From: Mugil cephalus
Taxonomy: Eukaryota; Chordata; Actinopteri; Mugiliformes; Mugilidae
Length of the DNA stretch: 64,000 bases
Assembly (NCBI RefSeq): GCF_022458985.1
Contig: NC_061779.1
Coordinates: forward strand, 11,296,501 to 11,360,500
Direction: 5' to 3'
Shown: positions 11,201 to 54,350 of the stretch, piece after piece
Layout: each line of letters opens with the position of its first letter
Numbering within the stretch: the first letter of the stretch is position 1
The notes under the pieces: model-generated
What the model was told of the DNA's origin: nothing
Database searches by the model: none
Seen by the model: the letters and a program-made list of their open reading frames with translations, nothing else
Made by a program: the position numbers and the translations under genes

Positions 11201-12813
11201 GAGTCCTTACCCGACATAGAAGCCAGTTCTGTGGGCATGTAGCCCTCAGTGCGGACCTGCTGCCACGTGGCTGTGGCAAAGTGATACCGCCACAGCTCCC
11301 TGAATAGGGGGTAGTCCTCGTTCTTCGACCCGCCCGCTTCCTCAAAGTCCGGGTTGTAGCCTCCAAACACGTACAGGTTGGCGCTGTCTGCAACACAGCG
11401 GTGTCCGCTGCGAGCCGGCGGTACACAGTGACCTGCAGGATGAAGGAAATTGTTACTCGTCCTTCATCCTTACCACAACAATGGCTCCATTCAATAATTT
11501 TATTGCTGCTTTTGTCTTCCAGCCAGGAACCATGAAACGACATCTTAGGGCTAACAGCTCAAACTGTGACTGTACTATTACTTGTTATAAATAAACCTGA
11601 GCTGGGTCTGGACACAGTAAGACTCCCAAAGCATCCCCTAACAAAATAACATTTGTAATCAAAACACAACTTGTCTTCTAAAAGGAAATACTCGTACCTC
11701 CCTACCAGTGCTATTTCAGTATCTTTACAGATACAGTGTGAGTGGGGTAAACAACACGGCGCTGTTATTACCTTCTCTGAGAAACCTGTTTGGGATCCGC
11801 AGGTTGGGGCAACCTGGGCCGGTGAAGAGGCGGTGAGCCTGAAGCCATCGCGCTCGCTTCTTAAAGCCTTTAAATCAGTCAGCAAAAAGGAAAACGAGGG
11901 ATTCATGACACACGCAGGAAAACAGAAATATGCGCAGTTCACGTACACTGTGTATATCGTAGCCAGTGGTTGGTGGAGTTTTTCATGGTGTTTTATCCAC
12001 GGGCCATGTGGCACATGTGGCTCAAGTAAACTGAACTCGACATTGATACAGATAACTCCTACTGCCACCGGTGTGTGTGTGTGTGAGAATGGGAATGATT
12101 GTAAATTGTTTTGAGTTCCACTGAGGCAGAAAAGCAGGACACAAGTTCAGATTGTGTGAAGCCACTTCATATGCAAGGTGAAGTTTTTAAAATGGTCAAA
12201 AATTCACAATGTTTATCAACAAATTCATGTGAGCCGTTTGTGTTGTAGTTAAGGGTTAAATCAGTTGTATAATGTCTATGTAAATAGGCTGAAGGTTGAT
12301 AAACGAAGCACAAATACTGAGTAGAAGTTGTATAACTTCCTGACTAAACAAAAAAAGTTTTATGCGTTAACAGGCAGCTTTTTTTTTTTTTATTTTTTTT
12401 ACTTTCCTCGACCCCCACTGCGACTTTCTCTCACCGGCCTCTCACATGTTAATCTGTATTTAAAGAGATCAATGATGAATTATGGTGCTGTAGACCCCTG
12501 CTGGGCTCCATTCACTGACTCCTTCCGTAGCAACATTAGCTAACCTCGGCCTGTGCACTGCAATGGCGAAGCACCAAAGGTAGCATCGTCAACTCAAGGA
12601 TAAACCAGAGTGACTTAATTTCCTGTCTAAACAAAGACTAAATCAGCGCACACTAACGTTGCAGGCAAAAAATCGAGCGTGAGCTCTCTGTTTGCTTTGC
12701 AGATTGTGTGGTGGCTTTGTTTACAAACCTGAGTCGCGGACGGAGGGCCTCCAAGACAGTTTCTCAAACTTATTGAGCTGACTGAGTGTTCCGTCTTGTT
12801 TGGGCGCCGACAT
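8258..12813 (-). CDS. klhdc10: Kelch domain-containing protein 10, CUL2 E3 ligase substrate receptor
   Basis: KLHDC10 is the substrate receptor of a CUL2-elongin B/C ubiquitin ligase that reads C-terminal glycine degrons. Coding exons, 5' to 3' on the minus strand: 12813-12729, 11867-11772, 11432-11211, 9845-9691, 9593-9445, 9346-9262, 9154-9088, 8991-8944, 8702-8563, 8467-8258. They sum to 1257 nt, 418 aa; the human protein is about 440 aa. Kelch blades are plain: NLYVFGGYNPDF, FGGTGIPFGENNGNDVHVC, YLYVFGGTTGYLYSTDLH, IYIFGGGTSWTSYSLDK, VFICGGYNGEQILSDLWK, CMYVHGGVVN. The C-terminus (LVVPSLLELTWEKLL onward) is where the elongin C/CUL2 box lies. The N-terminus (MSAPKQDGTLSQLNKF) lacks the Gly/Ser-rich run of mammals. 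All introns are GT-AG. Confidence 0.95.
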
Positions 12814-19943: not shown

Positions 19944-22900
19944 ATGTCGTCTCCAAGTCCGGGCAAGAGGCGAATGGACACCGACGTGGTGAAACTGTAT
20001 CCTTTACAGTACATAAACAAGACGAAACGGCCAAAGGGGAACCTGCACGTCTTTCTTTCTGATAATTGTCAGCTGTCTGGTGGTGTTTAATTGCATAATT
20101 TGCTCCCGATGGCTGCTGTGAGGATGAGTGTTGTGTGGCCACTAGCTATGAGAGATTAAATAGGTTTTTAGTTTAAAGTGTGATAATGGACAGCCCCGGG
20201 TCTGAGGCTGGTGTGTGGGTTGGCAGATGGTAGCTAGTTAGCATAGCAGCGAGATATTCGCTTATTTAACATTTTATGCGGTCTGAACCCTGGTCTGAAC
20301 CCACTTGTCTGTTTTCTAGCTTTAGCATGCTAGCACGCTAGCAGTGGTCGCCCCGTTTGTTTCAATGGTGAATTATTACAGATAACTCAGTGCTAGCTCT
20401 GTTAGCCTTAGCTCCAAGGCGTTAAGTCAGCCAAAAAAATAAGCGACCCCATCGCACTGACAACACAATGTGAAGTACGGGCGAGGTTTTTTTTACATTT
20501 TGGAAACACTTATTCGGAAAGACACGTTTATTTTATCCGTGATTTGGGTAACGTTGTCGCCGCGATAGCTAGCCGTGTAGCATGCTAAGAGAGAACAATT
20601 AATTGAGGTCGGTGGAGAGACGATCTTGGACAAAAGCAAAACTCTGCAGCTAACTGTGGTTCGGTTTTAACGTCAACCAGCAGACGTAACACTTTGACAT
20701 TTTTCTTTGTTGTTTTTTTTTTTTTTTGCTCTTTGTTTTTAGTGATGCTTAAAAAACTATAAACCAAGAAGATAAACAAATCATTGATCACTGGACAAGT
20801 CACGCCACAAATACCGCAGTTTATTCAATAAAAATGTTTAACGAAAATTTATTTTATCTCAGTTTAGTGATGCTAAAAGAAAACATGGACGATAGTGTTC
20901 TTTCTGTATTTTTTTTTAATTTTTTTTGCAATAACAATCTTCTTTTCTTTCGCGATGTTTAAATTTGATGACAGCAAAGCGGAGAATTGTTCTCGCAAAT
21001 ATAGATTTGTGTGCTATTAGTCGTTATTTTTGGATTTCCGCCGAAGTTTTTGCATGAAAGGTTTCTGACAGCGTGAGCTGAATTGTTTTGTTTTTGTCCT
21101 GCAGCTAGATGCTGCTCTCTGATTGGTCAGCTTGTTACCATCCGGAACATGGCGGAGGGCGGGGCTTCACACACAGCTGATCGAGGAACAACAAGCGTGT
21201 TGGGGGCTGAAGGGATGGAGGGGGGGTTACATGCAGGGATGGGGGCTGGGAACATCCGTTCATGGCTGGGATAGGGCTGTACACACTGGAGCTGAGTCGA
21301 GGAACATGTTGTTTTTCATCCCAGAAGACGCGATGGGGACCACTCCCGAAACAGTTAGATAACTTGACGTAATTAAGTTGTTTAAATCGTGGATTCAGTT
21401 TTTTTTTTATATAGCAAACAAAATCTGAAAAACTAAAGACTTTAAATTGGCTCCTGAGAAATTAATGTCATTATTTGTAATCAGACATGATACGTCATAT
21501 TAATTAGTATTTTATTATGTGTTTTATATTGGAACAATATAAAAGAACAAAGAAATCCCTATCTGTTATGATTTTTATCAATAACAATTAGGGTAATATG
21601 CATAGTAAAATTAGTTTTTTTTAATATAAATTTAGACTTTTACTCAAAAACAGGCTTTGATCTAGTACTTAACAATTGTTATCTCTTTTCCACTGTTGGC
21701 TTTGCAGCATGGTAGCAATTGTCGCCCCATTTGTATCAGTAGAATAAACAACGGAGACTGTCAGGATTAAACCGTGACTGATAACTACACAACTACTTTT
21801 GACTACATAACAGGCTTGGACATTGACCTTGTGTTTAACATTATTCGTCTGAACCCACTAGTATGTCATTCACCTGATGTGGTCACTGTGGAAACAATAA
21901 TTATTATAAAATAAAACAAAAAAGCAGGTATTTAAGAACGACTGATCAAACCTGTTGTCAGCCAAAGCTGGTGAGACGCTTGTTGGAGTACTTAGAAACA
22001 CTTCTTTCATTGAATGACATATTTAAAGCATAAGAAGTATTTTAAGCTTATCGACGTCACCTCTTAAGTTCCCTTTTCTGGGGGCACGTTTGAAGTTCAG
22101 TTTTGTGGCTCTGACTGTCACTGTCTTGACCGTGTCTGACTCTGACATCTAATTCCCAAACGATCACAAAATATGCAAACAGGTCGGGGTTGAGGGCAGG
22201 TGAGGTGACTGGATGACACTTGGGCTAGAAACCTGAGAGGCAAATCAGTTGTCAGTCAGAGCATCCACTCCCTTTTAATTATGCATAACTTGAAGCTGTA
22301 ATAAGTTTTAATGTAATTAAAACAGGGTAGTTATATAAAAAATCCCCTTCATATCACGAATAGGTAGAAATCAGCCAAGCTGTGAACATGTTTATTTCTA
22401 CTCCCGTGTTGGACTTTTAAACATGGAGATCTCTGGGGATTCAAGCATAGTCTCCATAGTAACCAAACATTGACTTTATGTTTACTTTAGATCACCAGAG
22501 CTGTAATAAGTATGTGTGGTCCGACCACAAGATAACTATAGTATAACACTGAAATGGAAGCAGATTTAATGCTGCCCATATAAACTTTTTTTTTTTTTCC
22601 TGAAATGATGCTATGTGGTAATCGTATCCTGGTTCACTTTCACCACGTAATTATTGTGGAGATTAAGTCGAAAAATGCAAAATCTAAGAACAGATAACTG
22701 GAGTCGCTGAGGTAACACATGTTTTGATCCAGTTCTTGTTGTTGTATATCTTGTTACACCAGTTCCCAAACATCAGTTAAACACTGGTGGGTAAAGGACA
22801 ATTCCGTGCATAGTTTCATGTTGTGTCTTTAAATCAGATATAGGAGAATGAGCTAAACTGTGGCGTGTGTGTGTGTGTAATTTGATTTTGGCTTGCTGGC

Positions 22901-25900
22901 CTTCATTCCCGCTCCCAGATTTCACAGTCACCAGACGCATGTGGTGTAGTTCAGGCTTTTCTATATGTTTAATTTAATTGGACAAATGGAGATGGAGCAG
23001 ATATGATCACTGTCATGAGAACGAGGCAGAAATGGTCTAAAAAGCCTCTTTGTGTGAGAGGATGCTGCAGTGTGAGCTCATGTCAAGATAAAAGCTTTCC
23101 CTTGTGTAGTTACATTCCTCTTCCAGATCATATTCTTAGGTTTCTATGGATAACCCTTAGGGAAAAGCATAAGAGAGAGATGCACTTTTTTTTTTTTTTT
23201 TCCCTGCACAAATGAACATCTCTAACAGGTTTTATTTATAGGACCCGTTGCCTCAGATCACATTTAGAGCTATTCCGCCGACTCGGTCAGTAGTTTTGTA
23301 AAGTTTTTGAGCGTGAGAGCTTCTTTTTCGTCTCTTGCGGCGGATGATAACTGATGTTTTTGCCTCCTGACAGTTATGCAATCAAGCCGTCTCGTGTTGT
23401 TTGGGCTCCATCAGTTTAACTAAATTAGCGTTTGAACGTTTGCTTTGGTTGGGTTGTCGGATCGGAGGTGACAGAAGGATTTATGACGGGATGATGAAAC
23501 CGGGCGCAACAGTTACTTTTGTGGTTTTTGTGTGTGTCTGTGTGTGTGTCTGTCATTGTGTCACACTTGCACGGCCGTTGAGATAAAATAAACTTCACCT
23601 TGCTGTGTTGCTGTCAGACAGATGTCTCTGGCTGCCCCAACACGCTGTGATTATAAACTACTGGTTTCGTTTGTGTGAAGCTGCTCTTGTTGTGGGTGTT
23701 TTTCTTCCATCCTGTCTTATTGTGGCCGTGAGAGGAGCTGTTTGTTCGAGTTTACCTTATTGATCCCGTTGCCATGTCTGGTGTTGTTGATCTCATCTTT
23801 GAACTCCGGTCGGGCGAGTTCACGCAGACAAAGAGGGCGTTTGGCCGAACTAAAAGTCCATCCTGTTTTTGATCACGTCTTTTGTGAGTGTTAATTTTTC
23901 CTAAACCAGCCGTCAGCATTGAGAGCAAACACGAGGTCACCATCCTTAGTGGACTCAACGAGTTCGTGGTCAAGTTCCACGGACCGCCTGGAAGTAAGAG
24001 CCTCATACTGACTTTTATTTACCAGGTTTTAATTTGTGTTCTGTAATATAATCAAAGTTTACAATCACAATTATGTAACACAAACGTAAACACAATTTTA
24101 TAAGCATCCACGTGTAAACCGTTAAATTTCCTTTACTAATTACAATGATTTCAATCGTGTTGAAGAAATATTTTATAGATAATTTCACCTTCACGTGGTA
24201 GTTAAGCAATGTTTTCAACTATTTTAATGAATTATTGACCTTTTTCCTCTTTTTTCTTTTAGCACCGTATGAAGGAGGCGTGTGGAAGGTTCGAGTGGAT
24301 CTACCAGATAAATACCCCTTCAAATCCCCATCAATAGGTATAAAATATTTGCTGAATCAGAAGCCACACAGCCACAAGTGAGCGTTGCTCCATCGTGTTA
24401 TGTGTTAAATCATGTTTTGTTTTTTTTTCCTTTTAGGATTCATGAATAAAATCTTTCATCCCAACATCGATGAAGCGTAAGTCGGACAACTTGAGACACG
24501 CAGCGTGTGTTTTAAACTTTCTGTTGAAGCAGCCGAGGTGGTGACGACCGACTGAGTTTAATGGAAAAGACGTTGCAGCTTTATGTGAATCATGATTTAA
24601 ATGTTTGACGTCTGTAGAGGGTTTTCACTGCGTGCCATCAGCACATCATAAATCTGGAAGATGCCACGTTGGAGGCACTCAACCTCCAAGGTAAACAAAG
24701 AGACTGAAGTAGGTGGTGGAAAATGAAGAACTATTGTCGTGTACAACATTTAGAATTGTACAGGCTGCAAAAAGTTATTATAAAGTAGGGAGAACGGTGG
24801 CAAAGGTTATCAGAGGGAAGGTTGTTGCAAATTTTTTCGGCCCATTTCTTGTCAGGTAATTGAAATGTTGTTAGCGACGACTCTTTACTAATTTTCTAGT
24901 TTAATGATTATAATATAATTCATATCAAGCTAAATGTTTCTTCAGGTGACCTTTGTTGACCTGTCATTCCAACAGATGGAACCAAATCAGAGTCGTCCTT
25001 TTGATAAAGGTCTTTTTAAAGGACTTTTAGAGGAAAATGAGAACCAAAAATACAGCAGATTTTATCTCAGTACATTAGAAAATTAGTTAAGAGTCACTGA
25101 TATCAACAGTTCAATTACCTGGCAAGAAATGGGTCGAACAAATTCGGATGTTTTCCAAACTTTTGCCTGCAGAACCCGGTTTAGCTTTACTAACCACGAG
25201 CACCTCTTTTACTCTGAGTCTGGCATTGTTCTCCCTGATTTGTACCAACATTAATTCACCATTTTCCATGATCTACTTCAGTCTTCGCCAAGTGAGTCCA
25301 ACATGGCGACTTCCACATTGAAAACACGCTGATGACTTACGCTGTGAAAACCCTCTGTAGAGGAATATTAATCCGGTGTGATGTCGGTTCGTGTTTTGCG
25401 TCATTCAATGACAGTGTTGTCTCTTTCTTCAGGTCAGGGACTGTGTGTTTAGATGTCATTAACCAGACATGGACAGCTCTCTATGGTAAGTCACTGTCAG
25501 TGCTCGTTAAAGTGTCAGACAGGAACGGCCAATAAAGAGAGCGGCTTATACCACAGCACCTCAGTAGAGCCACTTGAGCCAGAGCGCCTCGGTTTAATCG
25601 GCTTACGATTTAGTGATAACTGCTGCTTGTGTTAAGGTCATTGAGAACTGATAGATGAGATGGGACCGAGAGGTCTCTGGACGGACTCACCTGGAGGGGA
25701 TTCGTCTCACTTCGTTTGATTGTTTCAACGAGACCATAATTAAATTAAACTAATATCCAGATTATATTGTTTATATTGAAGAACTTTAACTATTTTTATT
25801 TCGTCTGATATTCTGACCCTGAGGAGAAAGACAGCGGAGAGATCTGTTGATTGGTTTTCATCCAGAGCTTGTTTGTTTGTGTTCTGGACTCACGCTGTAC

Positions 25901-28735
25901 GTGTGAACGCACCCTGGTAATTACAGCGTATCAGTGTTGGTGGGTGTTGTGACACCGGTTTGATGAGAGCTGAGCACAGATAATCATCTTAAACTGTGCA
26001 GCAAATAGAACAATACAGTCCATAACCTGGTGGAAGCATTATGATGTTGTTAACGTTTTACTGAAAGCATCATAATGTGGAATATGGTGCCAGCATTTAT
26101 TTATAATACACATAGTGCTTGTTGTATTACTGATGTATTTTTATAGTCTGACAGACAGAAAGAAGTTATCATACCTGAACGGTTGTTGAGATTCCTTGAC
26201 TGCCCGGAAACACACAAGATGTCTCCTTGATCTGCTTTATAATTGCTGAATAACAGTTTATCACACAGGCTAATAATAGAACAACAACTCCGTCTAAACC
26301 AATACGCCTCACGCTGCTTCCTCTGAGGAAACCGAGCGTCTTGATCTAAAGGATTATTCAGTCAGATTTAGAGGGTGGTGTAACCTTTGATCATCAAAGA
26401 AAAGAAAAAATCAGCGTAGAATAACCTTGTAAACGCTTGATCAGACCGTTTCTGTCCGAGTGGAAACATCAGGCGAACGTGAACAAAGCTGGATTTTTCT
26501 GGCAGATTTGATGCACCACAGGAAACAGAACCACTTTCCACTTTTTTCCAGAAAAATCTTATCAAATTGTTTTATTTAGCATCACTAAGGGTCGTAGAAG
26601 TTAATTGAAGTACTAAGTTTTATAAATATACATGTCAGTAAATTAGGGCAGGCACTTCATTTTCTTTATTAACATTTTGAAGCACTGATGTTGATCACAC
26701 ACGACCCGAAAATAATCCAACTTTTGTTCTAACAGAGGTGCTGTTGTAGCTGGTGGTTTTACTAACTAGAGCGTTTTCTGTGCTGACTGACTCATGTCTC
26801 TCGCCTACTTCCACCAGACCTCACCAACATCTTCGAGTCGTTCCTCCCTCAGCTGCTGGCCTACCCCAACCCCATTGATCCTCTGAACGGGGACGCGGCC
26901 GCCATGTACTTGCACCGGCCGGAGGATTATAAACACAAGATCAAAGGTAGTGCACAAGGTTGTATGTCAGGACACAACGTGTATGTGTCATGGTTTACAT
27001 GAACGTTTGGGTGTTAAGAATCAACAATTTAACGTTTTAGCATTAGAGCCGTCGTTTACCAGTGTCGAGCATCACTGTCTCTAGTTTATATTGTGTCTCC
27101 TGCACTGGTCACTATAGTCGGATTCAGAGAACTAGTGAAGTGAAGTGAACAAAACAACACAGTAGAGATCGACTGACTTATTGTCTGGCCGATAATTCAG
27201 TTTTTTTACTGGTAGCGGCAGATACGAGGGTGTATTCGCCAATATATATATGTATTTTTGCTCCCAGCAAGATTTACAGACAGGCACATCCACAGGCAGC
27301 CCTGTGCTGCTGGAGACACTGAGGACCCCTGCAGTCCATACATTGCCCCTCCCCCGCTAGCAGAGTGCTAGCAGAGAAAATGCTCGCACTCATGTCCAGC
27401 ACCTCTACAAATAAGAGTTGAAAAAAAGTTTCCTTTCCTTCCGTATCACTCAACACCAACACATTATAGTCATTACTATCAACAGCCCCAACCTTTACTA
27501 TTAGCTAGCTAGCTGACGTTTTTTTTTCCTCTCTCTGCCAAGCTAATAATGCAGGTTGTCAATCAGCCACTGTCCATAGTTTAGATTGGAGCTGTTGTTA
27601 AGCTGTTGGTGGAATATGTGTTGATGTTAAAGCCAAGCTGTAAGACTAATACTGCCTATAAGCTAAACACACTTGGCTGAGAAGGACCACGGGCCAAAAC
27701 TCCAGCTGTGATGTCCATTGAGAAGGAGGTGATTGAGAGTCAAGCACGAAAAAGTAATTGACAGGTTTGCCTCTGTCAAGCTGAGGCGGAATAGATTGGA
27801 GTCTGCAGGGTTTGTTCAGTCCAAAAGGAAAGACAGAGGATAGAATAATGTCTCTCAGCATCTCGATAAACATTTATGTTTTTGCTTAAATCGAGACTTG
27901 TAACATTTGTTACCATTGTGTAATTTTTATCAGGTAGACGGAGAGAAAATAAGCAGTATTGGCTGCAAATATCGGCTCAGGAAAATCGGCAGCACGTATC
28001 AGCCATCGGCCAATGCTGATGTGAAACAAATCGGTATCGGCCCTAAAAAATCCATATCGGTCGGTCTCTACAACACAGCTCAAATCATCTCATTTAGACT
28101 CACTCAGGAGAGGCCAGCTCTGTTACAACTTGTTGCTCGTCCTAGCCTCCCAGCTAACAGTAGCATTCCCCTCTTGAACGATGAATGCAGGCTACTGCCA
28201 ACTGCTGTTAAGAAGAGTTATTTCCTTTGGTGAAGGCGCTGAATGTATGTGCCAGCTGGCCGCTGGCCGTAGCCTTTGCAGCGTGTTCAAGTGCAACTTT
28301 TCTTTTTGGCCGAGACACATGCTACATGAGGCAACGTCACAATCAGTTTTTGTTGGCGTCCGTTAGCTGTTAGCCACATGATTACACATTTGTGTTTTAA
28401 TGCTCGTACGTGATCTTTCATGACCTCCGCTAACCTTTTGCACCACCAGGTTGACATGAAAGGTTCATTTAATGCATTTATTCACAGGAATATTTCAGTG
28501 ATAATTAAATACGAGTGTGTGAAAGTGTCTGAAGAAGTAAAGTTGCTGTTGCCGAAGCGTCACATGGTTTCAGTTGTCCCTCTTTCTCCCTGCTCCTGTG
28601 TCTCTTTCAGAGTACATCCAGAAGTACGCCACAGAGGAGGCTCTAAAGGAGCAGGAGGAGGGAGGCGGCGACTCCTCCTCCGAGAGCTCCATGTCGGACT
28701 TTTCGGAGGACGAGGCTCAGGACATGGAGTTGTAG
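19944..28735 (+). CDS. ube2h: Ubiquitin-conjugating enzyme E2 H
   Basis: UBE2H takes activated ubiquitin from E1 onto its active cysteine and passes it on with the CTLH/GID-type E3 complex. Exons: 19944-19996, 23917-23993, 24263-24337, 24437-24476, 25433-25485, 26818-26946, 28611-28735. They total 552 nt, 183 aa, the same length as the human protein. The start [18 protein letters not shown] is the known N-terminus. The UBC fold shows the HPN motif ([10 protein letters not shown], about residues 73-82) and active-site Cys87 in [13 protein letters not shown]. An acidic serine-rich tail ends in EDEAQDMEL. Against the remembered human sequence there are only a few changes, such as FHGPPG for FYGPQG. 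All introns are GT-AG; intron 1 is 3.9 kb and holds a possible second promoter. Confidence 0.97.
21080..21350 (+). promoter_or_regulatory. Candidate internal CpG-type promoter in ube2h intron 1
   Basis: Within 45 bp lie an inverted CCAAT box (ATTGG, 21122-21126), an ETS core (CCGGAA, 21142-21147), a YY1-type AACATGGCGG (21146-21155) and an Sp1 box GGGCGGGGC (21157-21165). This arrangement is typical of TATA-less promoters and stands alone in an AT-rich intron. It could drive an alternative ube2h first exon or a non-coding transcript. No consensus donor was traced, so the transcript is inferred only. Confidence 0.45.
24770..25175. mobile_element. Inverted-repeat MITE candidate in ube2h intron 4
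   Basis: Two arms of about 75 bp are imperfect reverse complements. The left arm (about 24825-24900) contains CCCATTTCTTGTCAGGTAAT and the right arm (about 25078-25160) contains ATTACCTGGCAAGAAATGGG. A loop of about 180 bp separates them. Outside the arms, related GCAAAAGTT words suggest that the ends extend a little further. There is no coding capacity. This is the form of a non-autonomous DNA transposon, but the superfamily is not clear because the exact ends and target duplication were not fixed. Confidence 0.55.
27163..28070. mobile_element. Complete non-autonomous hAT-type transposon in ube2h intron 6
   Basis: The 908-bp insert is bounded by a perfect 8-bp direct repeat, CAACACAG, at 27155-27162 and 28071-28078. 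Its ends are inverted: TAGAGATCGACTGA at the left, TCGGTCGGTCTCTA at the right, with matching subterminal GGCCGAT words. An 8-bp target duplication plus a TAGAG terminus is the hAT superfamily signature. The interior has no transposase frame that I recognise, so it is a deletion derivative that would need a transposase from elsewhere. It is of moderate age, since the terminal repeats have diverged. Confidence 0.8.
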
Positions 28736-31070
28736 TGAAGGCGGAGCCCCCCTTCACCTCACAACAGACTGTCATTTCCTAAAGAGCAAGAAACTCAGTG
28801 CTATATTCATATTTAAACGAGACAATTTTTTTACAGCAACACAAGGATTTTTATTGCTACACGAGGATTTGCAGTACGATATTGCAGAATATTATCTTAG
28901 GAATTCATCGCCACCGGCCCCCTCATCTTCATCCAGAGAGCCCGTTCAGATCCAAGAGGAAGCACTTCGTTGTTTTCCGTCATCGTTTGTGGCTTTTTTT
29001 TGAAACACTGCCTGAGTCTAAGCAGAGCAGTGAGACCATCACAGGAGGACACAAAACTGTTTTCCCCATTTGTACCACAGACCAGGCCGCTCCTCCTCGT
29101 CCTCCTCCTCCTCGTCCGCTGTTAACACGCTCAAGTTCTTTCCCCCCCCCCCCCCCTTTCACCTTTTCACCGCGTCGTCGGGGCGTCGTTGCCCCGGCGA
29201 CGGAAGACCGCACGGTGACAATCCACGATTTCGTAGCGGTCTTTAGTTCTTTGCCACCGCCGCCATGAGGAGTTTCCCATCGGTGTCATCGCATCTCAAG
29301 ACGTCCAGCGTGTCCAGACGGCCTCTCCAGCAGAACCGCCCTCTGCGCAAACCTGCAGACACATCGCACACGATCAAACAACCAGCACATCAATCATGAC
29401 AAAACGCCACAGCATGTGTGTGTGTGTGCGTGCGTGTGTGTGTTTGTGCGCATGCCTGAATGTAATCCATTGATATCTTGTGTTGTAACCGGCCCCCGGA
29501 TGCTCAGCAGAAGATCCGAAGAGAGAGGCCTCTTCTTCGTCCCTCCCTTCTCCAGCGTCCGTCTCCTCCTCCTCCTCCTCCTCCTCCTCTCCGTTTTAGG
29601 AAAGTGTTCGTCATTCTCTGAGTATCTTTGTATATTGTGGCATGACACAAGTAAGAAGTAAAGTTTTTGTAGGGCTTTCTTTGTGGAGCTGTATCGCTTG
29701 TAGACATGAAGAGGACGTTTGTGTGAGCCAGGCCGGGTTTTGGTGGGCGAAGGGATTATCCAGGTCCTTGTTGAACTGTTGAATTTCTTAACTCTGCCTA
29801 TTGCTTGTGTTGAACTATAATAGGTGTTTGACTTGCGTAGGGATAGTTAGTTTCTTCTTCTTTCCTTTTTTTCTTTGCAGGTGGTGAGTCCTATCATAAT
29901 GTATGGTTTAATACTTCTATAATACACTAGTTTAAAAAACTACTCGTCCTGGAAAGATGAGGAGAATTACACATCTTTATCTGTGGGATGGCCTCCAAAG
30001 AAATGTTGCACCCCCTTTTCTTCTGTAAACGTGTCCATCGAAGATGATTTACGTTGTTTGAGCCGTTCAGCGCGGTCACATTTACCTTTTCTTTTTCATG
30101 CTGTTTGTGGCCTGTTGTTTTCCAAAATGGTGGGACCAAAATCTGATTGATCTACAGGCGTTCGTTTCATGTTTCCCAAAACGAGGAATTCCCCAGAAAG
30201 AGTTTACACTGATGTTGAGTTGATGATAATTTTTTCCTCAAAGGGTCAAACTCTCTGATTAGTTCAGACTTAAGTCCAAGCACATGTTGATTACTCACCA
30301 GAGGACACTTTAAAACAGTTTGTCCTTGTTTACCCCCCCAAAAAAAGGTTCATGTGCCTGTTTGCGATAATGTGGAGGAGGTGTTTCCAGAGCGGTGACC
30401 GTTTACCACTCTTTGTTTTTTGTTTTAGTGGCTTGAAGCCTGATACAGTAGATGTTTGTAACATTGCAGATCAGATTGTTATTTCTGTAAGGAATCAAAA
30501 ACCAGAATATTGCCACCACCAGAGGGGTTTGTTTCTTCTTGTCTGAAGAGAAACTGATTAAAATCAAACATTTAATGACTAATCCCTTAACAAAAAAAAA
30601 AGAGAAGAGTATCTCATCCATTGTGTCTTTCAAGAAGGTGCTGACCTTCATTTATACTTTAACATATGTTGGTAAAACTGGCACGTCTCAGTTTTTTTGA
30701 CATGACATTAAAAATGTATATGTTAAATAGCCTCATTAAAATGGCTCTAATTAGCCTTGGTAACCAAATATGTGTTGGTGTAAGTTAACCCGACGTCTCG
30801 GTCAGTTTTCATTCGCCACTAAAACAACCCACTGTCCAGCCTTGTTGTCGTCCATCATATTACTTTTTTTTCTCCTTTAATTTTTATTAATGAAACTCAT
30901 ATATTTCATGCCTATAATTTGTTTTAATGCTTTTATTTTTAATCGTTTGAGCCCAGGATTACAGATCAAGATATCCCAGATTTTTAAAAGGCAAAAAAAT
31001 GAATAAATGTGCTTCCCTTGTAACTCGGAGAGAGAAATAAATAAGAGTGAAAAATAAAAAAAACATACAA
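28736..31070 (+). other. Long 3' UTR of ube2h
   Basis: After the stop codon the transcript probably continues about 2.3 kb to AATAAA signals at about 31035-31045. It holds a C-run near 29141-29156, CCT/CTC tracts at about 29091-29112 and 29561-29588, and GT-repeats near 29416-29445. UBE2H in other vertebrates also has a long 3' UTR. Open frames here are low-complexity and not credible genes. Confidence 0.55.
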
Positions 31071-31259
31071 TGTCATCATCTTGTTTCTGTGTGCGGTGGG
31101 TGATGAGGTCCGAAATATGTTTTTCACGTTTCCTGATTTGTCTGATTAATTATCTCTGTAGCCTGGACTGGTGAGTTTAAAGTGGTGAGCTGGAATAAAA
31201 TAGTGTTATTTTGGGGAAACTCAACTCGAGTGGTTCATTACAACAACTGCACCTTCTGT

Positions 31260-31273
31260 CCACTAGATGGCAG
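31260..31273 (+). promoter_or_regulatory. CTCF-like motif between ube2h and the miR-183 cluster
   Basis: CCACTAGATGGCAG fits the CTCF core consensus (CCASYAGRKGGCRS) at every position. It lies between the ube2h 3' UTR and the microRNA cluster, where a domain boundary would be plausible. Binding cannot be judged from sequence alone. Confidence 0.4.
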
Positions 31274-31599
31274 TCCACTCTCTGTCTCATGAAGGCTGAC
31301 GTCTTTCCATAAGGGGTTGGACAGTTTTTTTAGATTTAAAGTTTAAATTAGATCGGATAATTAAAAATTAGATCGGACTGCTTTTAAGTTTTGCACCATC
31401 CACGTTTGTTTATAAAGTTGTGTTTGTTTTGTGGCCGTGACATGTCGAGGAAAGTCCGTTTTTTTTATAACTATTTTAATTATAACTATAATTTTGGACG
31501 AATAAGGTTTAGCTACATCGGTTTTACAGAGTCCAGGCATCACTGACATAACAAATAAAATTGTTTTATTTAAACACCTGAAAATTGTAGGTAATCACA

Positions 31600-31800
31600 T
31601 GTGAGATAAGATTATCCTTTATTTATCCCACAGAGGGAAAAAATGCACATTTGCAGCAGCAGACAGTTTAAAGACAGCATACAGAGGAAATAAAAAGAAG
31701 TAAACATTAAATAAGTACAAAAATAGAAAATGAAATACAGGTGAAATCGTATGTAAATAGATCAATTTGACACATTCAGTGAATAAAGCTCATGAAACAG
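31600..31800. repeat. Retroposon-like 3' end
   Basis: The words 'attatcctttatttatccca' and AGAGGGAAAAAATG, followed by an A-rich tail with AAATAAGTACAAAAATAG, resemble the dispersed tail seen at 3845 in cax1. Confidence 0.4.
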
Positions 31801-31809
31801 AAGTTACTA

Positions 31810-34465
31810 AACAAGATAATAATGTGCTTGTCCAGTGTGTGTATGTGTGGTCACATGGGAGCAGGATTTATTGCACAGCCTCACATGATTTTTAGAAACT
31901 TAAACTTTCATTATTAAAACGGCACAAAAAGCTGCCTCGAAACCAGCAATTGTCTCTCTCTGTTGAGGCCCATATTGTCTTGGCGTGTGCGTGGATTGTC
32001 TTAAATAAGTAAATGAGTGAATGGAAGGAGTTTCTCAGATGATGTGACAGACTCAGGCCCAGAGTATAATGATCTTATGAAATATTCATCGCTGTGTGGC
32101 CACGCAGCCTCCCTCTGAGCATGATCTGGTTTCCTGTTTCAATATCAGTTTAATTTGGCTCGACTGACACACTCAAGTAACGGAGATTATCAGGGTTTTT
32201 TGGCCATTGTCGATATTGTTACAGAAAGTATTTTTTTATATACATTAAAAATATGAATATTCTTAAAAAGTATTTTAGAATGAAAGTTATATTTATTCGT
32301 ACGAATTTGGCGCATCTCTTTCATCTTTTAACATTTAAAAGAATTGTTTTGCCAAATCCATTTGAGTCCAAACATATCATGTGAAGATATATATTTTTTT
32401 AATGCAACATGGAAATGCAGTTAATTTGTGAGGATGTGACGAGAGCAATAATATAATTTAAATAAGAGTGAAGTTATTTCAGAGTAACTCGAGCAGCAGC
32501 GGGAGAAGAAGCAGAAGGGTGCTGGCCGGCTGCGCCTCCTTCATAATGTATGGAGAGGACAAAGAGTTCACGGGTGGATTTCAGCGTCAACCTACAAAGA
32601 ACCGTAACCCAAACCTGTTCTATCCGACTCCGGTGGATTCGCATCAACTGAAAGGATGATGCCTCTTTTTCCACCTGCAATCTGTCTAATAATCACCGAC
32701 AGCAGGTAAATGAGCCCCGGACGGACCTTCGGGTGCTCGTATAAAGCGAGGGACAGACGAGGCCTAGGCTCGGAGAAACTTTCAGACCTGTGCTGGGATG
32801 AGAGAGCGGAGCTTCAGGCCTGTCTGCAGCAGGGTGCCACACCCGTGGGGATGCTGGTAGGTCTAACTGCGTGTGATTATGTGGCAGGTACAGAGAAATT
32901 TTAAGAAATGAAAACGGTTATGTTTTACTTTTTTTTGTCTGACGCATCATAAATCTTAACTATTAGAACTATATGACAGATGTGCTTTCAATTAAAATTA
33001 GTTTGACGTATGTAACATTTATTTGGGCAGCATTAAATTACCACACAGCTGCCCCTCATCGTCGCCACTGCAGTGCGCGCTCTGTGCGTAAAAGGCGCAG
33101 CGGAAATGTACTGTAGGCCTGCGTATGGAGGCGGCAGAAGGAGAGGGAGGAGGGCGGTTTGGATTACTATGCTGCCAGTGGGTTAAGATGCTTACCAACT
33201 AATTACCTGTCCACTAGAAAATCCCCTGCTATACAGCCCAAAACAAGCAGGGAGCCGTGAGGGACGGGAGACACGGAGACGTGCAGAGTAAACTGATTCT
33301 GTGTGGACCTGCGGACTGAAGAAGTGTTAAAGGGATAAAAAATGACCTCTCCTCCACCACACGCAGCCCAGTTGATTCATCCGAATGACCGGCAAATTAC
33401 TTCTACTTTCTACTAAATGTAATTTTAAGGATGGCTGTTCTGGATGCTTTTTTTAAGGTTTGGTTCAGTGAAGAAGCGTCTTGGCTTGTCCTAACTGTAA
33501 AGTTTTTTTTGTGCGCAGTGAGGATATTGGATCAACTTTATGAGGTAAGAAATACGATGTTGCGTCTGAACAGAGACAGAGAGAGAGAGTAACCAGGCTA
33601 CTTATTATTAAACTCCGTGTAAATTAGGAAACACCCTGCTATGATCCTCCATTGTCGTGACTACAAAAAAATACATGTTTGTCTTTGAATTTGATGAGTT
33701 ACTTTCTGCAAAGAAACACTTGGTCATAACAAATGACGTGATGTAAAGATTTTTTAAAAAATCCAGAAAGAAAATAGTGATTACACAAGGTGGGATGGAT
33801 TTAACCTTCACTGTAGTAATGATCATCTTAATGGAAGGACCTGAATGTATATTATATGTTTAATTCACTAGATGAAGGGTTACTTTATCAGATCTGTTGT
33901 AAACGTGGGGCCTTATAATGGGGGGCATTAGGAGCAACTAAAAACATGCAACTAAATAGAGCAACTTCAGGAGATTTAGAGTAATGCTCTCTCTCTCTCT
34001 CTCTCTGAAGCTTTTTACTCTATTGATCTCTCCCGGAAACGGGAAGATGAGCCCTGCTTTGGGACCCATTTGGAGCATCTCAAAAATCACTTAGCGCATC
34101 ATTCTCCACAGCCGGATTCAACCCGAGCAGCAGACCTGCTCCTTCACCACGTTCAGCACGGCTCTCATGGAGGCCGCGAGTGTGACAAAATGCTAAAAAA
34201 CTGAGTAACATTTATAAGGTTTAATCAGCGCACCAGTTTATGGAGATTTTCTTAGAGAAAGTGGATTTCTGGGGACAGGATATCTGGCCCAGCGGCCGAT
34301 GGAATCGCTGGACTTATTCGCCATCCTGTGAGGTAGACAAAGCAGATATGAGGGAACGACGCCATTGATTCTGACACTGTCTGATCATTTCTACTCTGCG
34401 CAGGACTCCTAAAGACACTAAAACAAAACAAGGCTTCCAGAAAAAAAGGCAGACACACGAGTTGG
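31810..34465 (+). other. Region upstream of the microRNA cluster, likely pri-miRNA and its promoter
   Basis: No coding gene is recognised. A GC-richer island at about 33040-33320 follows AT-rich DNA and is a reasonable place to look for the pri-miR-183 promoter. A (CT)n run lies at about 33989-34008. Frames such as 32468-32659 and 32710-32904 have no support. Confidence 0.3.
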
Positions 34466-34469
34466 ACTA

Positions 34470-34565
34470 CATCTCCTCCTGTTCTGTGTATGGCACTGGT
34501 AGAATTCACTGTCACGGCACACTCTCAGTGAATTACCATAGGGCCATAAACAGAGTAGAGACAGA
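34470..34565 (+). ncRNA. mir183: miR-183 precursor hairpin
   Basis: The 5' arm at 34489-34511 carries the miR-183 mature sequence (starts TATGGCACTGGTAGAATTC) with no mismatch to the vertebrate miR-183-5p that I know. The 3' arm at 34528-34549 (starts GTGAATTACCATAGGGCC) is miR-183-3p with a small change in the centre relative to human. The arms pair around a short loop. It is the first member of the cluster and lies on the same strand as ube2h. In vertebrates it is expressed in hair cells, photoreceptors and sensory neurons. Confidence 0.96.
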
Positions 34566-34649
34566 ACCACACTGCCGCCGTCCGTGTCCTAATCCTTGTA
34601 TATATTCAAGTGTAAAACCAACCGACGGATCCACTCCCCTTAAACATGT

Positions 34650-34745
34650 CAGATCTTCTTTGCCCATTTTGGCACTAGCACATTTTTGCTTTTTTCTCCT
34701 GGTTTGAGCAATCATGTGTAGTGCCAATATAGGACAAGACAGACA
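34650..34745 (+). ncRNA. mir96: miR-96 precursor hairpin
   Basis: The 5' arm at 34668-34690 holds mature miR-96 (starts TTTGGCACTAGCACATTTT; seed TTGGCAC). The 3' arm at 34710-34731 (AATCATGTGTAGTGCCAATA...) is the star strand. The two arms pair across a loop of about 19 nt. It starts 157 bp after the miR-183 5p strand ends, so both must come from one primary transcript. In humans and mice, seed changes in miR-96 cause hearing loss; here the seed is intact. Confidence 0.96.
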
Positions 34746-34984
34746 CTCAGCCGTGCGTTTTAGTCCAGCGCTGTGAGCCTGTTTCTAAATATTCTTGTGT
34801 ATTAGCTCTGTGAAACAAACAGAGAGGAGAGCGAGAGACAAAGGAGATCAACTATGGATCCTTATCGATTGCGCCGTCCCTCTCGGATGTCAGTAGTTGC
34901 CATGGAGGCCCATGCTCTGTCTCTGAGATGTCTCTCCGTGTAACATGAACTTCGGTCGTCACACAGATCTGGTGGCGGTGACCG

Positions 34985-35085
34985 GCGCACTCTCCCACAG
35001 TGTTTGGCAATGGTAGAACTCACTCTGGTGGGCTGGAAGGATCCGGTGGTTCTAGACTTGCCAACAACTGACTGAGAGCTTTGAC
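34985..35085 (+). ncRNA. mir182: miR-182 precursor hairpin
   Basis: The 5' arm at 35003-35024 holds mature miR-182 (starts TTTGGCAATGGTAGAACTCA). The 3' arm at 35047-35067 (TGGTTCTAGACTTGCCAACA) is the star strand. It lies only about 0.3 kb after miR-96, against roughly 4 kb in human as I remember it. The three hairpins share orientation and related seeds. Confidence 0.95.
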
Positions 35086-36742
35086 CCGTCCAACCTCCAA
35101 AGACCACAGACTCTCCGCAGGAAGACGTTTTGCATTTAGAAATGTGTGTTAGATATGTCAAAACCAATGCCGGGGTGAGCTTTGTAAAAAGTAATACGCT
35201 TTTTTAACAGGCGCAGATGTTGGTTGTGTGAGTGACTGCAGGCGGAGCAGCGAGGGGTTTAAATACACCATCCCCCCCTGAGCGTTCTTGCAGTCTCAAA
35301 ACACTGTAGAAATCTGCAAGGACAAAGAAGGGCTACAGTTTCTCCGAGGAGGACACACAGACAGAAATACATCACGAGTCTAGTGATTGTGGTGGATGGG
35401 AAAACATCCATAAAGATTATAGATGTCCTGCCTCTCCCGTCCTGCAGATGTAGTCTGCCACAGTTAGTTGATCATAGCATCAAACTCTTGTGTAATCTTA
35501 GACTTCAAACGCTAAAGGCACGAACCAAAGGAGGCCTTTGATTATTGGGCTGTAACGCATACAGGCCATTAAGCTCCTAGTTGACTATAATCTCCCCTGA
35601 TCAATAAATCAATGGTTGCTCATGTGTTTGGCTGTGAGCAGAGCAGCTGAAGTTGTGAAGTTGTAAATCCTCGGTTGTGTTAGTGTTAGCAGCAGCTACA
35701 AGAGCTCAGCTTTATGGTGCAACCTGATCTCAGTCCGTCACGAAAGGTCTGAACCATGAGGCTGCAGGGGTTCATGGCAAATAGAGTTAGTGCTGCCTTT
35801 ATATCCCACAGACACTTTGGAAAATGCATTATAAAAGAAAGTCCTCATTAAACCCACAGGGTCGTAGAAACGACGGAGAACGTTACTCGCTACTGCTCGA
35901 GTGTTTCGTACATTTACAATTTACGGCTGCACATAAAACAGACATGATCAGTTTTTAAGGAGGATTCTGATAATTTACAGACTGTTTTAGGTCTAAACGA
36001 GTCAAAAATAATGTGATTTCCTGTTTGTTTTACATAACCAAAATAATACATTTTCACAGTTTTTAATTTTGCCTGTCTTTGAGATAAAAATGGACCTTAA
36101 CATTAGGATGAACTTGTCCAGAATTAATCTTTGCATCTTCAAATATTTCTTTCGTTTAACATGTTTTTAGATTACCTGAAACAGATAAATAAGTCAGTCA
36201 GGTCTGACTTATTTGTCAGACAATTTGGAATAAAGTGAAGAAAAAGACAAAACTCTGGGTCCCTAATTTATTACATTACCGCACACTGGCTGCAGGTCTC
36301 GCAAATGTACAGACAGATTACTGGTAGGGCTGCATGCTGGGATAGAGCAGTCAGAGCAATCAGGAGCTGATAAATGTTCATCATGTTTCAGTAGGAACCC
36401 TGTGAGAGTCCATTATAGCCGACTGCAGAGGCTGCGAGGTTAAGTGGTGCCAGCGCAGAGAGAGGAGAGGAAGGAGGGAGACCGGCACGCTGACAGCTGG
36501 TACGAGTGATTAGACTGTGTAGTGATGCAGGGAAGGCATCAAAGCTCTTTAGGGAGAATCCCTAACTGGGAGGGGGCGGTACAAGGACGCACACAAACAG
36601 ACACACGCGTATAAAATCTGGATACACAACTTCCTGGTTGCTAAAACTAAGCTTACAGGTCCAACAGCGTATAGCTCTGCACAGGCCATCTGTCTTCTTC
36701 AGACGTACCACCGACCAGTGGATTATCACCAGCTCTGCCCCA

Positions 36743-36803
<61 letters not shown>

Positions 36804-39050
36804 GAGCTACTGGTCATACTGGAGAACAAGTGGTGTCATTCGATTAGATAGGGTGCGGAAGTTAATGGATGTCCTTATTAATCTCATACACTAATGGTTG
36901 TTTAATTGCTATTGTCTCTGTTGCTCCATTGTGCTGTATATCATGGTGTTAGCTGCCATGCTGTTACTTGTCTGTCGCATTAAAGCCAATTTACACTAGT
37001 ACCAACAATATGCTAAGCCTCTGTTCATTTGCTATCAACAGGAGATTAACTGAAGCCGAAAAGGCAGAAAAAAAAAAAGGTTTTGGGGGAAGATGCATCA
37101 GCTGATGGACCAATTTATCGTCACACAACGATTAGACGATTATTCGGGGGATGAGACGTTTGAATACGGTCGAATTAGTGTTAGGTGGCGAGGCTGGCTT
37201 CCTTCACTGACGGTCGTTTCTGTCCTGTCCGGCATTAGTGACTCACCTTTAGTCTGCCGCCCCAAAGAAACAAAGTGTACAGTTCAATAAGGATCTTCAG
37301 CCAGCCCTCGGTATAAACACACACACACACTCTCTGGATTACAGTAATCCAAAGACTGGGGGGTATTTTTAGGACTTCATGACCAGAGGCAGACAATCAA
37401 GGAAAACAGATTGTCATATGACCAGCTGGGTCTTCTTGGAACTGAGTTAATTACGTAGCGTCTAACAGGAGCCCAAACTAATGCTGACAGCTAAATCTGC
37501 ATGTAACGCATCAGAGGGGCAGGTTTGCTTTTAACTCCATTCATTATTCATTTACTGAATATTTCTAAACTTTTATAACCCTGTAGCAAGTTAATAACAC
37601 AACTGAGCTGTTTAAATTTCAGTGAACTGCAGATGAATGACGTAAATTGGATCAAATTGTTTTTTGTTTTTTAAATTATTCGTGTGGGAAATTAGAAAGA
37701 TTGGAAAAATCTAGTAGACACAGAAGAAGATAGTGTGTAGATTATGTGGTTAAATATCTTGGCATACAACACTGGCCTCATCATTAGGTAAACTGAGAAA
37801 AACAATGCATTTATATGTCAGTATTACACTAAATTCCCCTTAATGTCTGTTCTAATGTTTAGTTTATGTCGAAAACAGCATCAGGAAGGTGGTGATTCAA
37901 CTGTGTGACTGATTTTGGAGGTTTTTTGTTGCATTAAACTATTGAATTAAACACAAAACTGTTTCTATTTCATTGTAAGTGTGGTATCTAAGTGTTTTGA
38001 ATACATAAAAATATGAATTTAACTTTATTTTGAGATGTGAATTGTTGTCCCAGCGCAGCATTAGTATCCCAGTGTTTCTTGTTAGCTTGATAGCTACTAG
38101 TGCAGAGAGAACAGAAGAAGACAAGCACCAATACTGGATTTGGGCTTGTACCATGGAACCATACTTTACCTTGATTCATTCACAGATATACATGCTGGAA
38201 TATATCGTCTAACTTATAGTCATTCAGTACACCAGCGTTGAATCAACTGCATCTATTGCAGTGGTCTAAATAATTAATTTCTGAAAGTGTGTAAGTTAAT
38301 AAGTGGAATGTGTGCACATCATTAAAGTCATCTTCAGTTCTCCACACACTCTCCACATTATTATATCAGACAGCTCCTCACCCAGTAGATAGTTTGATCA
38401 GGTGCCCCAAACACCTCCTTTTCTCATCAGAGGACATACTTTCATTTCTTGTGGTCATATCTTAGTCATAACATTTAAAAGAATCACAACTAGTCAAACT
38501 CCAATCACAACCTTAAATCAACTCTTAAAATACAAGGAGTAAATTATGAGGACTTTTATATATTTTTGGGGGGGAAGTGAGTCCTCATATCGTGACTGTG
38601 AGAGTGGGTTTATGTCCCCACAATGTGAGTAGTAAAAGCACAAACACACACACAAACGTTCAATAACATACTGCAGTCATACGATTATTTTATGATTTTA
38701 TCAGGATAAACACACAGAAGCTTTAATGGTGAGAAAAATATATATATATAGGGACCATTGCTCTCATCACCAGGAGATAACTGGACTTTTACGCCCCCCA
38801 GTGGCTAAAACGTGGTCATGTGTGTCAGTAGAGAAGCCGAACAAGCTACTTTCAAACAGAAGGCCGTAGTCAGTGTTACCCTTCATCTATGTTGGTAATA
38901 ATTACTGGTTTAATATGGATAAACCTTTATATACATGACTCTGCAAACACTTAATGCATATAATAAAACACCTTTCTATTTTTATTATATTCAAATTAAG
39001 GAGCAGGAACGCAGAAACCTTTTACTGGTCACTTTTATTTCAAGCAGAAG
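35086..39050. other. Intergenic spacer between miR-182 and ahcyl2
   Basis: About 4 kb without a recognisable gene. It holds a long (CA)n microsatellite at about 36745-36795, short CA runs near 37318 and 38640, a TA run near 38740, and a CTCF-like CGCCCCCCAGTGG word near 38791. Open frames are short and unsupported. Confidence 0.5.
36745..36795. repeat. (CA)n microsatellite
   Basis: About 25 uninterrupted AC units in the spacer downstream of the microRNA cluster. Likely polymorphic. Confidence 0.95.
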
Positions 39051-39243: not shown

Positions 39244-48411
<9,168 letters not shown>

Positions 48412-51661: not shown

Positions 51662-54350
51662 TCATCGTGCCGTGCGTATGTTCTTGTACTGGCACAGAAG
51701 CAGGTGCTTGAAGGTGTTCTTGAAGGTGGCGTTGCAGAGGGCGTAGCAGGCCGGGTTGATGGTGCTGTTGATGTAGCAGAGCCAGTAGCCGATGGTCCAG
51801 AGGGAGTTGGGGATGCAGGTGGAGCAGAAGGTGTTGATCAGGACCATCACATTGTACGGCGTCCACGTGACGACAAACGCCACCAGAATGGCCATGATGG
51901 TGCGCGTAACCTTTTTCTCCCTGGACGAGACGCCCCTCCTCTTCCACATCGCCACGGCGCTCTCGCCCACAGCGCGTTTCGTCACCTGAAAAGTGAGAGT
52001 AGAAGAAGAAGCAGAGCCAAGTGTAATTGTTCAGATTTCATTCATGTTTTGGGGAAAACTGGAGACAGTGAAGCATATATATACCATTTTAGACACCTGC
52101 ACACATCCAGTAATAGAAAACTATAAAATGGAAATAATAGAAAACTCAGTAACAAAACTGTGAATGAATTTAGAGTAGTTACACAAACACTGTCAAAGCA
52201 TGTGTCTGTTTCAGCACCCTGCGACCAGGAAAAGCTTCCCCCCAGCCTTCCTTCTGAATGCTGAGATTCTTTTTTTACCCGGAGAATCATTCTTACTTTC
52301 TTCTTGATTGCCTCAGACTGTAACCTCATTAAACCCTTGATAGGACCATTCATAACACTTCTCACTGCCGCTGCTTTGGGCTGGCTCATTTCCGCTGATG
52401 ATCTCCAGTTCTAGCAAACAGCCACTGCCGGCTGGCGGGGAGCACATCGTTACAAATGCACGTCCCCGCAGACACGCGTTTAAAACTGCAGAGAGCTCTT
52501 ACGCCGGCGTTGAAAAGCAGAGGGTTGACAGGGACTTGGATGCAGTGGATGTTAATTTACATGTGAAAGTCACACTCTGCAGCTCTCGCTTGTTTGTATG
52601 TCGTCGAGCGGCTCATGTAAACCAGAGTTTACAACCATGCTAACAGGGATTTGAACATTCAAATATTTTTAACATACCTCAAACCACATCTTAGCTTTCT
52701 CTGTTTGCATTCTACCCTAAACACCTGATGATTCCCTCTTGAGATTTACAGATGTTTTGGTCATAAACTTAGAACAACGTGACAAATGTTGCTCCCATCT
52801 GGAGCACTGTTATTACAGTTAATTCTCAGGAGGACATGTGCCTAATGTCATGGCAAGTTCTTTAATACATATCGAGACATGTCACTCAAAAGTGAAAATG
52901 TATATCTCATGGTGTCGTCAGGGATTATTGCGATTAATTCTTAGGAGACGATCAATACGTGTGTGCAGATCTTTATAATCGTCTAAGATCCTTTCACTGT
53001 TAGACCTGCAATGACTGCTAGGAGGTGAAATTCGTGACACATATATTTTTTTGTTTTTTTAACATCTAATATGAATCAAACTCACCTTAAACAGCGTCCT
53101 CGCGGCCAGACTTTGCCTGTCAACCTCTGAGTTCTCGGTGGATGGAGGCTGCGTTTGTGTTTTCCTGCCATTTGAGCTCTTTATCGATGAAACAGGAACC
53201 GCGGAGTCCTTAGATGTTGACGCGTGGACGCACTCCGACTCCACCTGGTTGTCCCCTTCCTCTTTACACGGTGCACTTCCATTCTGTTGCTGCTGCTGCT
53301 GCTGCTGCTGCAACATTTCCTTCTCCTTCCCATTTCCAGCCTCCTCCTGAGCCTTTTTTGCCACGACGCAGTTGTTCTCGCATCCCTCCTCCTGGCTGTG
53401 AGAGGCACCTTCTGCCAGACTCGTACCCGAGGTCTTCCTGCTGTCCCTCCTGATGCGGCTGCGGCTGGCCTTGGAGATGCGCCAGTACAGGTGGATCATG
53501 ATGGCCACCGGTAGGTAAAAAGCTGCTATGGCTGTGCCAAAGGTCACCGCCGGGTTGGAGAAGAACTGGATGTAGCACTCGTGCGGCGGCACGGTCCTCC
53601 CGCCCACAATGAACTGCCAGAACAAGATGGCAGGTGCCCACAGGATGAATGACAGGACCCAGGCGGCTGCGATCATCAGGCCTGCCATTTTGGTGCTGCG
53701 GCGCACCGGGTAGCTGAGTGGCTTGGTGACGCAGAAGTAGCGGTCGAAGCTGATGATGAGAAGGTTCATGACTGAGGCGTTGCTAACGACGTAATCAACG
53801 GCAAGCCAGAGGTCACACACCACCGCTCCCAGGGGCCAGTAGCCGATCACGATGTAGACAGTGTAGAGATTCATGGAGCAGACGCCAATAATGAGGTCTG
53901 CACAGGCCAGGCTGAACAGGAAGTAGTTGTTGACGGTCTGCAGGTTCCTGTTTACCTTTAGAAAAGAAAAAAGAAGAAGAAGAACGCAACAAAGCAGGCT
54001 GTCAGATGCTAATCTTTTTTTGTGCAATGTGATGCATGCCTTCTCATTTCTATTAGATTACCAGGCTGCACAGGGATGCGCGTGTTCTACTCTTATCTCG
54101 TGGTGTTCTTCTTTAATGTGTCTAGAGATGAATGCTTGGGTCATGAATCATGAATGATTGCAACAAGAAAATCCCCAACCTTTATCGAGAGCATGACCAG
54201 GATGTTTCCGATGACAGTGATCAGACTCAGGGAGCCAGCCACCAGGATGATGAGCACTATCTCCACCATGGTGTACGGGCTTCCAGAGAAGAGGCCGGCG
54301 TTATCGCCACCGCTGATGTTGACGGCGTGGGATGAATTCGGAGTCTGCAT
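51662..54350 (-). CDS. chrm2: Muscarinic acetylcholine receptor M2
   Basis: A class A GPCR coupled to Gi/o that slows the heart and acts as a presynaptic receptor. Three coding exons on the minus strand: 54350-54180, 53955-53086, 51985-51662; 1365 nt, 454 aa (human about 466). Both introns are phase 0. Visible landmarks: TM1 with [12 protein letters not shown]3 ligand Asp111 in [13 protein letters not shown] at 128-130; TM5 [14 protein letters not shown]6 TWTPYN (Trp388, Tyr391, Asn392); TM7 [20 protein letters not shown]2 rather than M4 is favoured by [16 protein letters not shown] with [15 protein letters not shown] and by the neighbourhood, although the tail [10 protein letters not shown] is M4-like. 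The third loop is shorter than in mammals and contains a run of nine Gln. An acceptor at 54409/54410 shows that a 5' UTR exon precedes the ATG. Confidence 0.93.
53285..53312 (-). repeat. CAG trinucleotide repeat encoding poly-Gln in chrm2
   Basis: Nine consecutive Gln codons in the third intracellular loop, mostly CAG (TGC on the plus strand). It is a coding microsatellite, so its length may vary between individuals and species. Confidence 0.9.

Follow-up and report, generated by a model that had tools for sequence, protein, structure and literature searches.

Gene content of the locus

The window, meaning the whole 64,000-base stretch of DNA that was analysed, carries the precursors of mir-183, mir-96 and mir-182 on the + strand, with ube2h on one side of them and an ahcyl2-like gene on the other. 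Neighbouring genes were located by tblastn, using human protein sequences as queries, of which AHCYL2 and NRF1 were partial. Pfam was run on 10 of the 76 reading frames, picked by eye. The following features were found around the cluster:

4145-4621, + strand: reading frame with a Na_Ca_ex match, 25.6 bits against a Pfam cut-off of 24.9
8261-11463, - strand: klhdc10 (tblastn), with an extra weak piece to 11862 at E 0.008
19944-28735, + strand: ube2h coding region (tblastn, 6 pieces over UBE2H probe residues 1-183, TAG stop)
36745-36802: AC dinucleotide microsatellite, 29 copies
39397-44486, - strand: ahcyl2-like coding pieces (tblastn, 13 pieces), convergent with the cluster
43496-43559: TG dinucleotide microsatellite, 32 copies
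51662-54057, - strand: gene for a muscarinic acetylcholine receptor of M2/M4 type (both tested frames match 7tm_1)

The ube2h pieces span 19944-28732 and are followed by the TAG stop; one translated piece crosses an intron. ube2h is the nearest identified gene upstream of the cluster and shares its strand; 5,746 bases separate the ube2h stop codon from mir-183. On the far side, both ahcyl2-like frames tested matched AdoHcyase in Pfam, and the best PDB matches of the frame at 39244-39597 (- strand) were annotated as "Putative adenosylhomocysteinase 2" and "Adenosylhomocysteinase 3". This frame continues beyond the last aligned residue, with no stop codon at that point. Seven of the ten frames given to Pfam were matched (one Na_Ca_ex, two Kelch repeats, two AdoHcyase and two 7tm_1) and three had no match. 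The larger receptor frame, 53059-54057 (- strand), was closest in PDB to the muscarinic receptors M4 and M2. The frame at 4145-4621 probably belongs to a gene for a cation/calcium exchanger. No tRNA genes were found by ARAGORN. Judged by its gene content and compactness, the window probably derives from a teleost fish.

Identification of the three microRNA precursors

The entire window was scanned on both strands with the covariance models of 4,227 Rfam families at gathering thresholds. Exactly three matches exceeded the threshold, all of them on the + strand and each spanning the full model:

34482-34555, + strand: mir-183 precursor hairpin, RF00663, 92.6 bits, E 5.7e-21
34660-34736, + strand: mir-96 precursor hairpin, RF00669, 88.4 bits, E 1.7e-18
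34996-35072, + strand: mir-182 precursor hairpin, RF00702, 82.7 bits, E 4.8e-18

E-values of this size exclude chance. The mature sequences were compared with the human 5p sequences:

34489-34510, + strand: miR-183-5p, 22 of 22 bases equal to the human mature sequence
34668-34690, + strand: miR-96-5p, 23 of 23 bases equal
35003-35026, + strand: miR-182-5p, 23 of 24 bases equal

The sole mismatch in miR-182-5p is at base 22, outside the seed, where T is found in place of the human A.

The three precursors span 591 bases in total, with spacers of 104 bases between mir-183 and mir-96 and 259 bases between mir-96 and mir-182. They lie on one strand in the order 183-96-182, well inside the 10 kb that is given as the miRBase cluster distance (PMC6356880). 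An initial annotation of this DNA had placed all three microRNAs on one strand within about 0.6 kb. All three were recovered by Rfam within that span, and both the Rfam matches and the mature sequences agreed with its coordinates and strand.

Folding and strand assignment

Each precursor was folded and scored against 200 shuffles. The + strand fold of mir-96 was very stable (-34.7 kcal/mol, z -5.87, none of the 200 shuffles equally stable). That of mir-183 was moderate (-32.3 kcal/mol, z -3.08, 1 of 200), and that of mir-182 was mildly unusual (-35.0 kcal/mol, z -2.13, 6 of 200). Every precursor formed one main hairpin that carried the mature sequence in its 5' arm; the weakest case was mir-182. 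The hairpins proposed in the initial annotation were thus all found to fold, mir-182 only mildly better than its shuffles. Since its fold alone is only mildly unusual, the identity of mir-182 rests on Rfam.

A sliding fold scan was performed over 33.5-36 kb on both strands, and the best nine stretches per strand were scored with 60 shuffles each. By energy, mir-96 ranked first and mir-183 second on the + strand; the mir-182 stretch ranked fourth, with a z of -1.76. Several unnamed stretches equalled or surpassed mir-182 in the strength of their z values, among them 34324-34408 on the + strand (-3.28) and 33948-34032 and 35380-35464 on the - strand (-3.96 and -3.13). A permissive Rfam scan of 33.0-36.5 kb, with E up to 1, gave nothing besides the three precursors and opposite-strand echoes of mir-96 and mir-183. 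A fourth microRNA is not claimed; these stretches, which lack an Rfam match, are the top of a large selection, with 60 shuffles behind each z. The fold at 33948-34032 overlaps a CT-rich run at 33989-34007, which is an inverted copy of 33571-33589. CNNC motifs were first found 17, 20 and 22 bases past the approximate 3p ends; a motif this short is common by chance and was given no weight as evidence for processing.

An origin of the hairpins from the opposite strand was also considered. The reverse complements of the mir-183, mir-96 and mir-182 precursors folded with -33.8, -35.8 and -33.5 kcal/mol, similar to the + strand, and for mir-182 the reverse complement had the better z (-3.55 against -2.13). 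Because both strands fold about equally well, the strand was assigned from Rfam scores and from the mature sequences. The opposite-strand echoes reached 43.4 bits for mir-183 (against 92.6 on the + strand) and 45 bits for mir-96 (against 88.4), both below their gathering scores, and no opposite-strand match to mir-182 was among the matches listed in the permissive scan of 33.0-36.5 kb, a list that omits 4 overlapping same-clan matches of lower score. The + strand was preferred on the Rfam scores.

Orthology and gene neighbourhood

The mouse cluster is described as intergenic between Ube2h and Nrf1 (PMC4468907). ube2h is found on one side of the cluster here, as in mouse. On the far side, the gene found was ahcyl2-like and not the Nrf1 of mouse; with a single partial NRF1 probe, the window showed one match, at chance level (E 7.4). 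As far as that one partial probe shows, the mouse neighbourhood is only half matched, with ube2h present and no NRF1 match better than chance. Nrf1 as a neighbour is not a requirement for belonging to the cluster. A full-text literature search for synteny of ube2h and mir-183 gave no result.

Based on the three full-length Rfam matches, the folds, the mature-arm matches, the position of ube2h upstream on the same strand and the mouse arrangement, the locus is almost certainly orthologous to the miR-183/96/182 cluster that is conserved among vertebrates. The three members, their 183-96-182 order, their common strand and the ube2h neighbour are all shared with that cluster. That it could instead be a disused paralogous copy left by a genome duplication, with the working cluster elsewhere, is extremely improbable, as all three hairpins are of full length and the mature arms hardly differ from the human sequences.

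Proposed transcription unit

The established route for this cluster leads from one RNA polymerase II primary transcript, through processing by Drosha and Dicer, to target repression in sensory cells. For the present locus we infer the same course, from joint transcription in one unit to processing, expression and the choice of targets. One RNA polymerase II primary transcript would carry miR-183, miR-96 and miR-182. It would be processed by Drosha and then by Dicer into the mature microRNAs, which would in turn repress their target mRNAs in sensory cells, hair cells and photoreceptors among them. Polyadenylation-signal patterns were scanned on the + strand over 28732-37000, and the first AATAAA after the cluster lies 0.53 kb past mir-182:

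35603-35608, + strand: candidate polyadenylation signal AATAAA

This candidate signal is compatible with a single short primary transcript for the three microRNAs, as the initial annotation had suggested, and such a transcript is plausible.

Seven AATAAA (31002-31782) and ten ATTAAA (30557-33607) are present on the + strand between ube2h and the cluster. The layout of these hexamers fits separate ube2h and microRNA units as far as the sequence goes; it proves nothing, because both motifs turn up often wherever DNA is rich in A+T. They bear on the possibility that the cluster lacks independence as a unit and that its members are processed from ube2h read-through transcripts, as the shared strand and the distance of 5,746 bases from the ube2h stop codon to mir-183 might allow. 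Read-through would have to pass all of these hexamers, common as they are. Furthermore, the mouse cluster is presented as a unit that lies between genes (PMC4468907), and its primary transcript has been subjected to 5' RACE in retina (PMC4551935). Dependence on ube2h read-through is therefore considered improbable.

A separate start for mir-182 within the 259-base spacer, so that the three microRNAs would not strictly come from one transcript, has a precedent in mammals. Two secondary starts have been described there in the stretch from miR-96 to miR-182, about 500 bases upstream of miR-182 in human cells and about 140 bases upstream in mouse (PMC4551935). A start 140 bases upstream would fit into the spacer found here. 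On the other hand, this spacer is only 259 bases long, whereas that of human measures 4.2 kb, and the sequence of the mouse start is stated to be absent from human (PMC4551935). A separate mir-182 start is thus regarded as very unlikely at this locus, and a single primary transcript for the whole cluster is preferred.

Comparison with other animals

The long spacer between miR-96 and miR-182 in mammals is thought to permit separate control of miR-182. According to a 2015 review, the two are 4.2 kb apart in human and 3.6 kb apart in mouse (PMC4551935), against 259 bases here; the figure of about 4 kb for human that the initial annotation had given agrees with the printed one. The cluster order is described in the same review as conserved in deuterostomes, and the spacing as shorter in "lower organisms", with the exception of sea urchin (PMC4551935). 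The close packing, which had been put forward as noteworthy in itself, is therefore already known, since shorter spacing outside mammals is reported in that review. It is unlikely that in this lineage, with the mammalian type of long spacer missing, the three microRNAs are locked to one promoter and the 183:96:182 ratio is set only by processing and decay.

In zebrafish, the miR-183/96/182 cluster lies on chromosome 4. Its members are given as parts of a single polycistronic transcript (PMC2427041). Zebrafish mutants are reported for each member alone and in combination, and in the mutant panel hair cells were affected and retinal structure was normal (PMC6635406).

The compact cluster is an ordinary orthologue, tighter than its mammalian counterparts in an already described manner, and nothing is new beyond the exact spacing found in this single genome. 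A conserved sensory microRNA cluster is hereby documented in a further genome. Being so small, the cluster would be easy to clone or to delete as a whole, but zebrafish mutants of the single members and of their combinations already exist.
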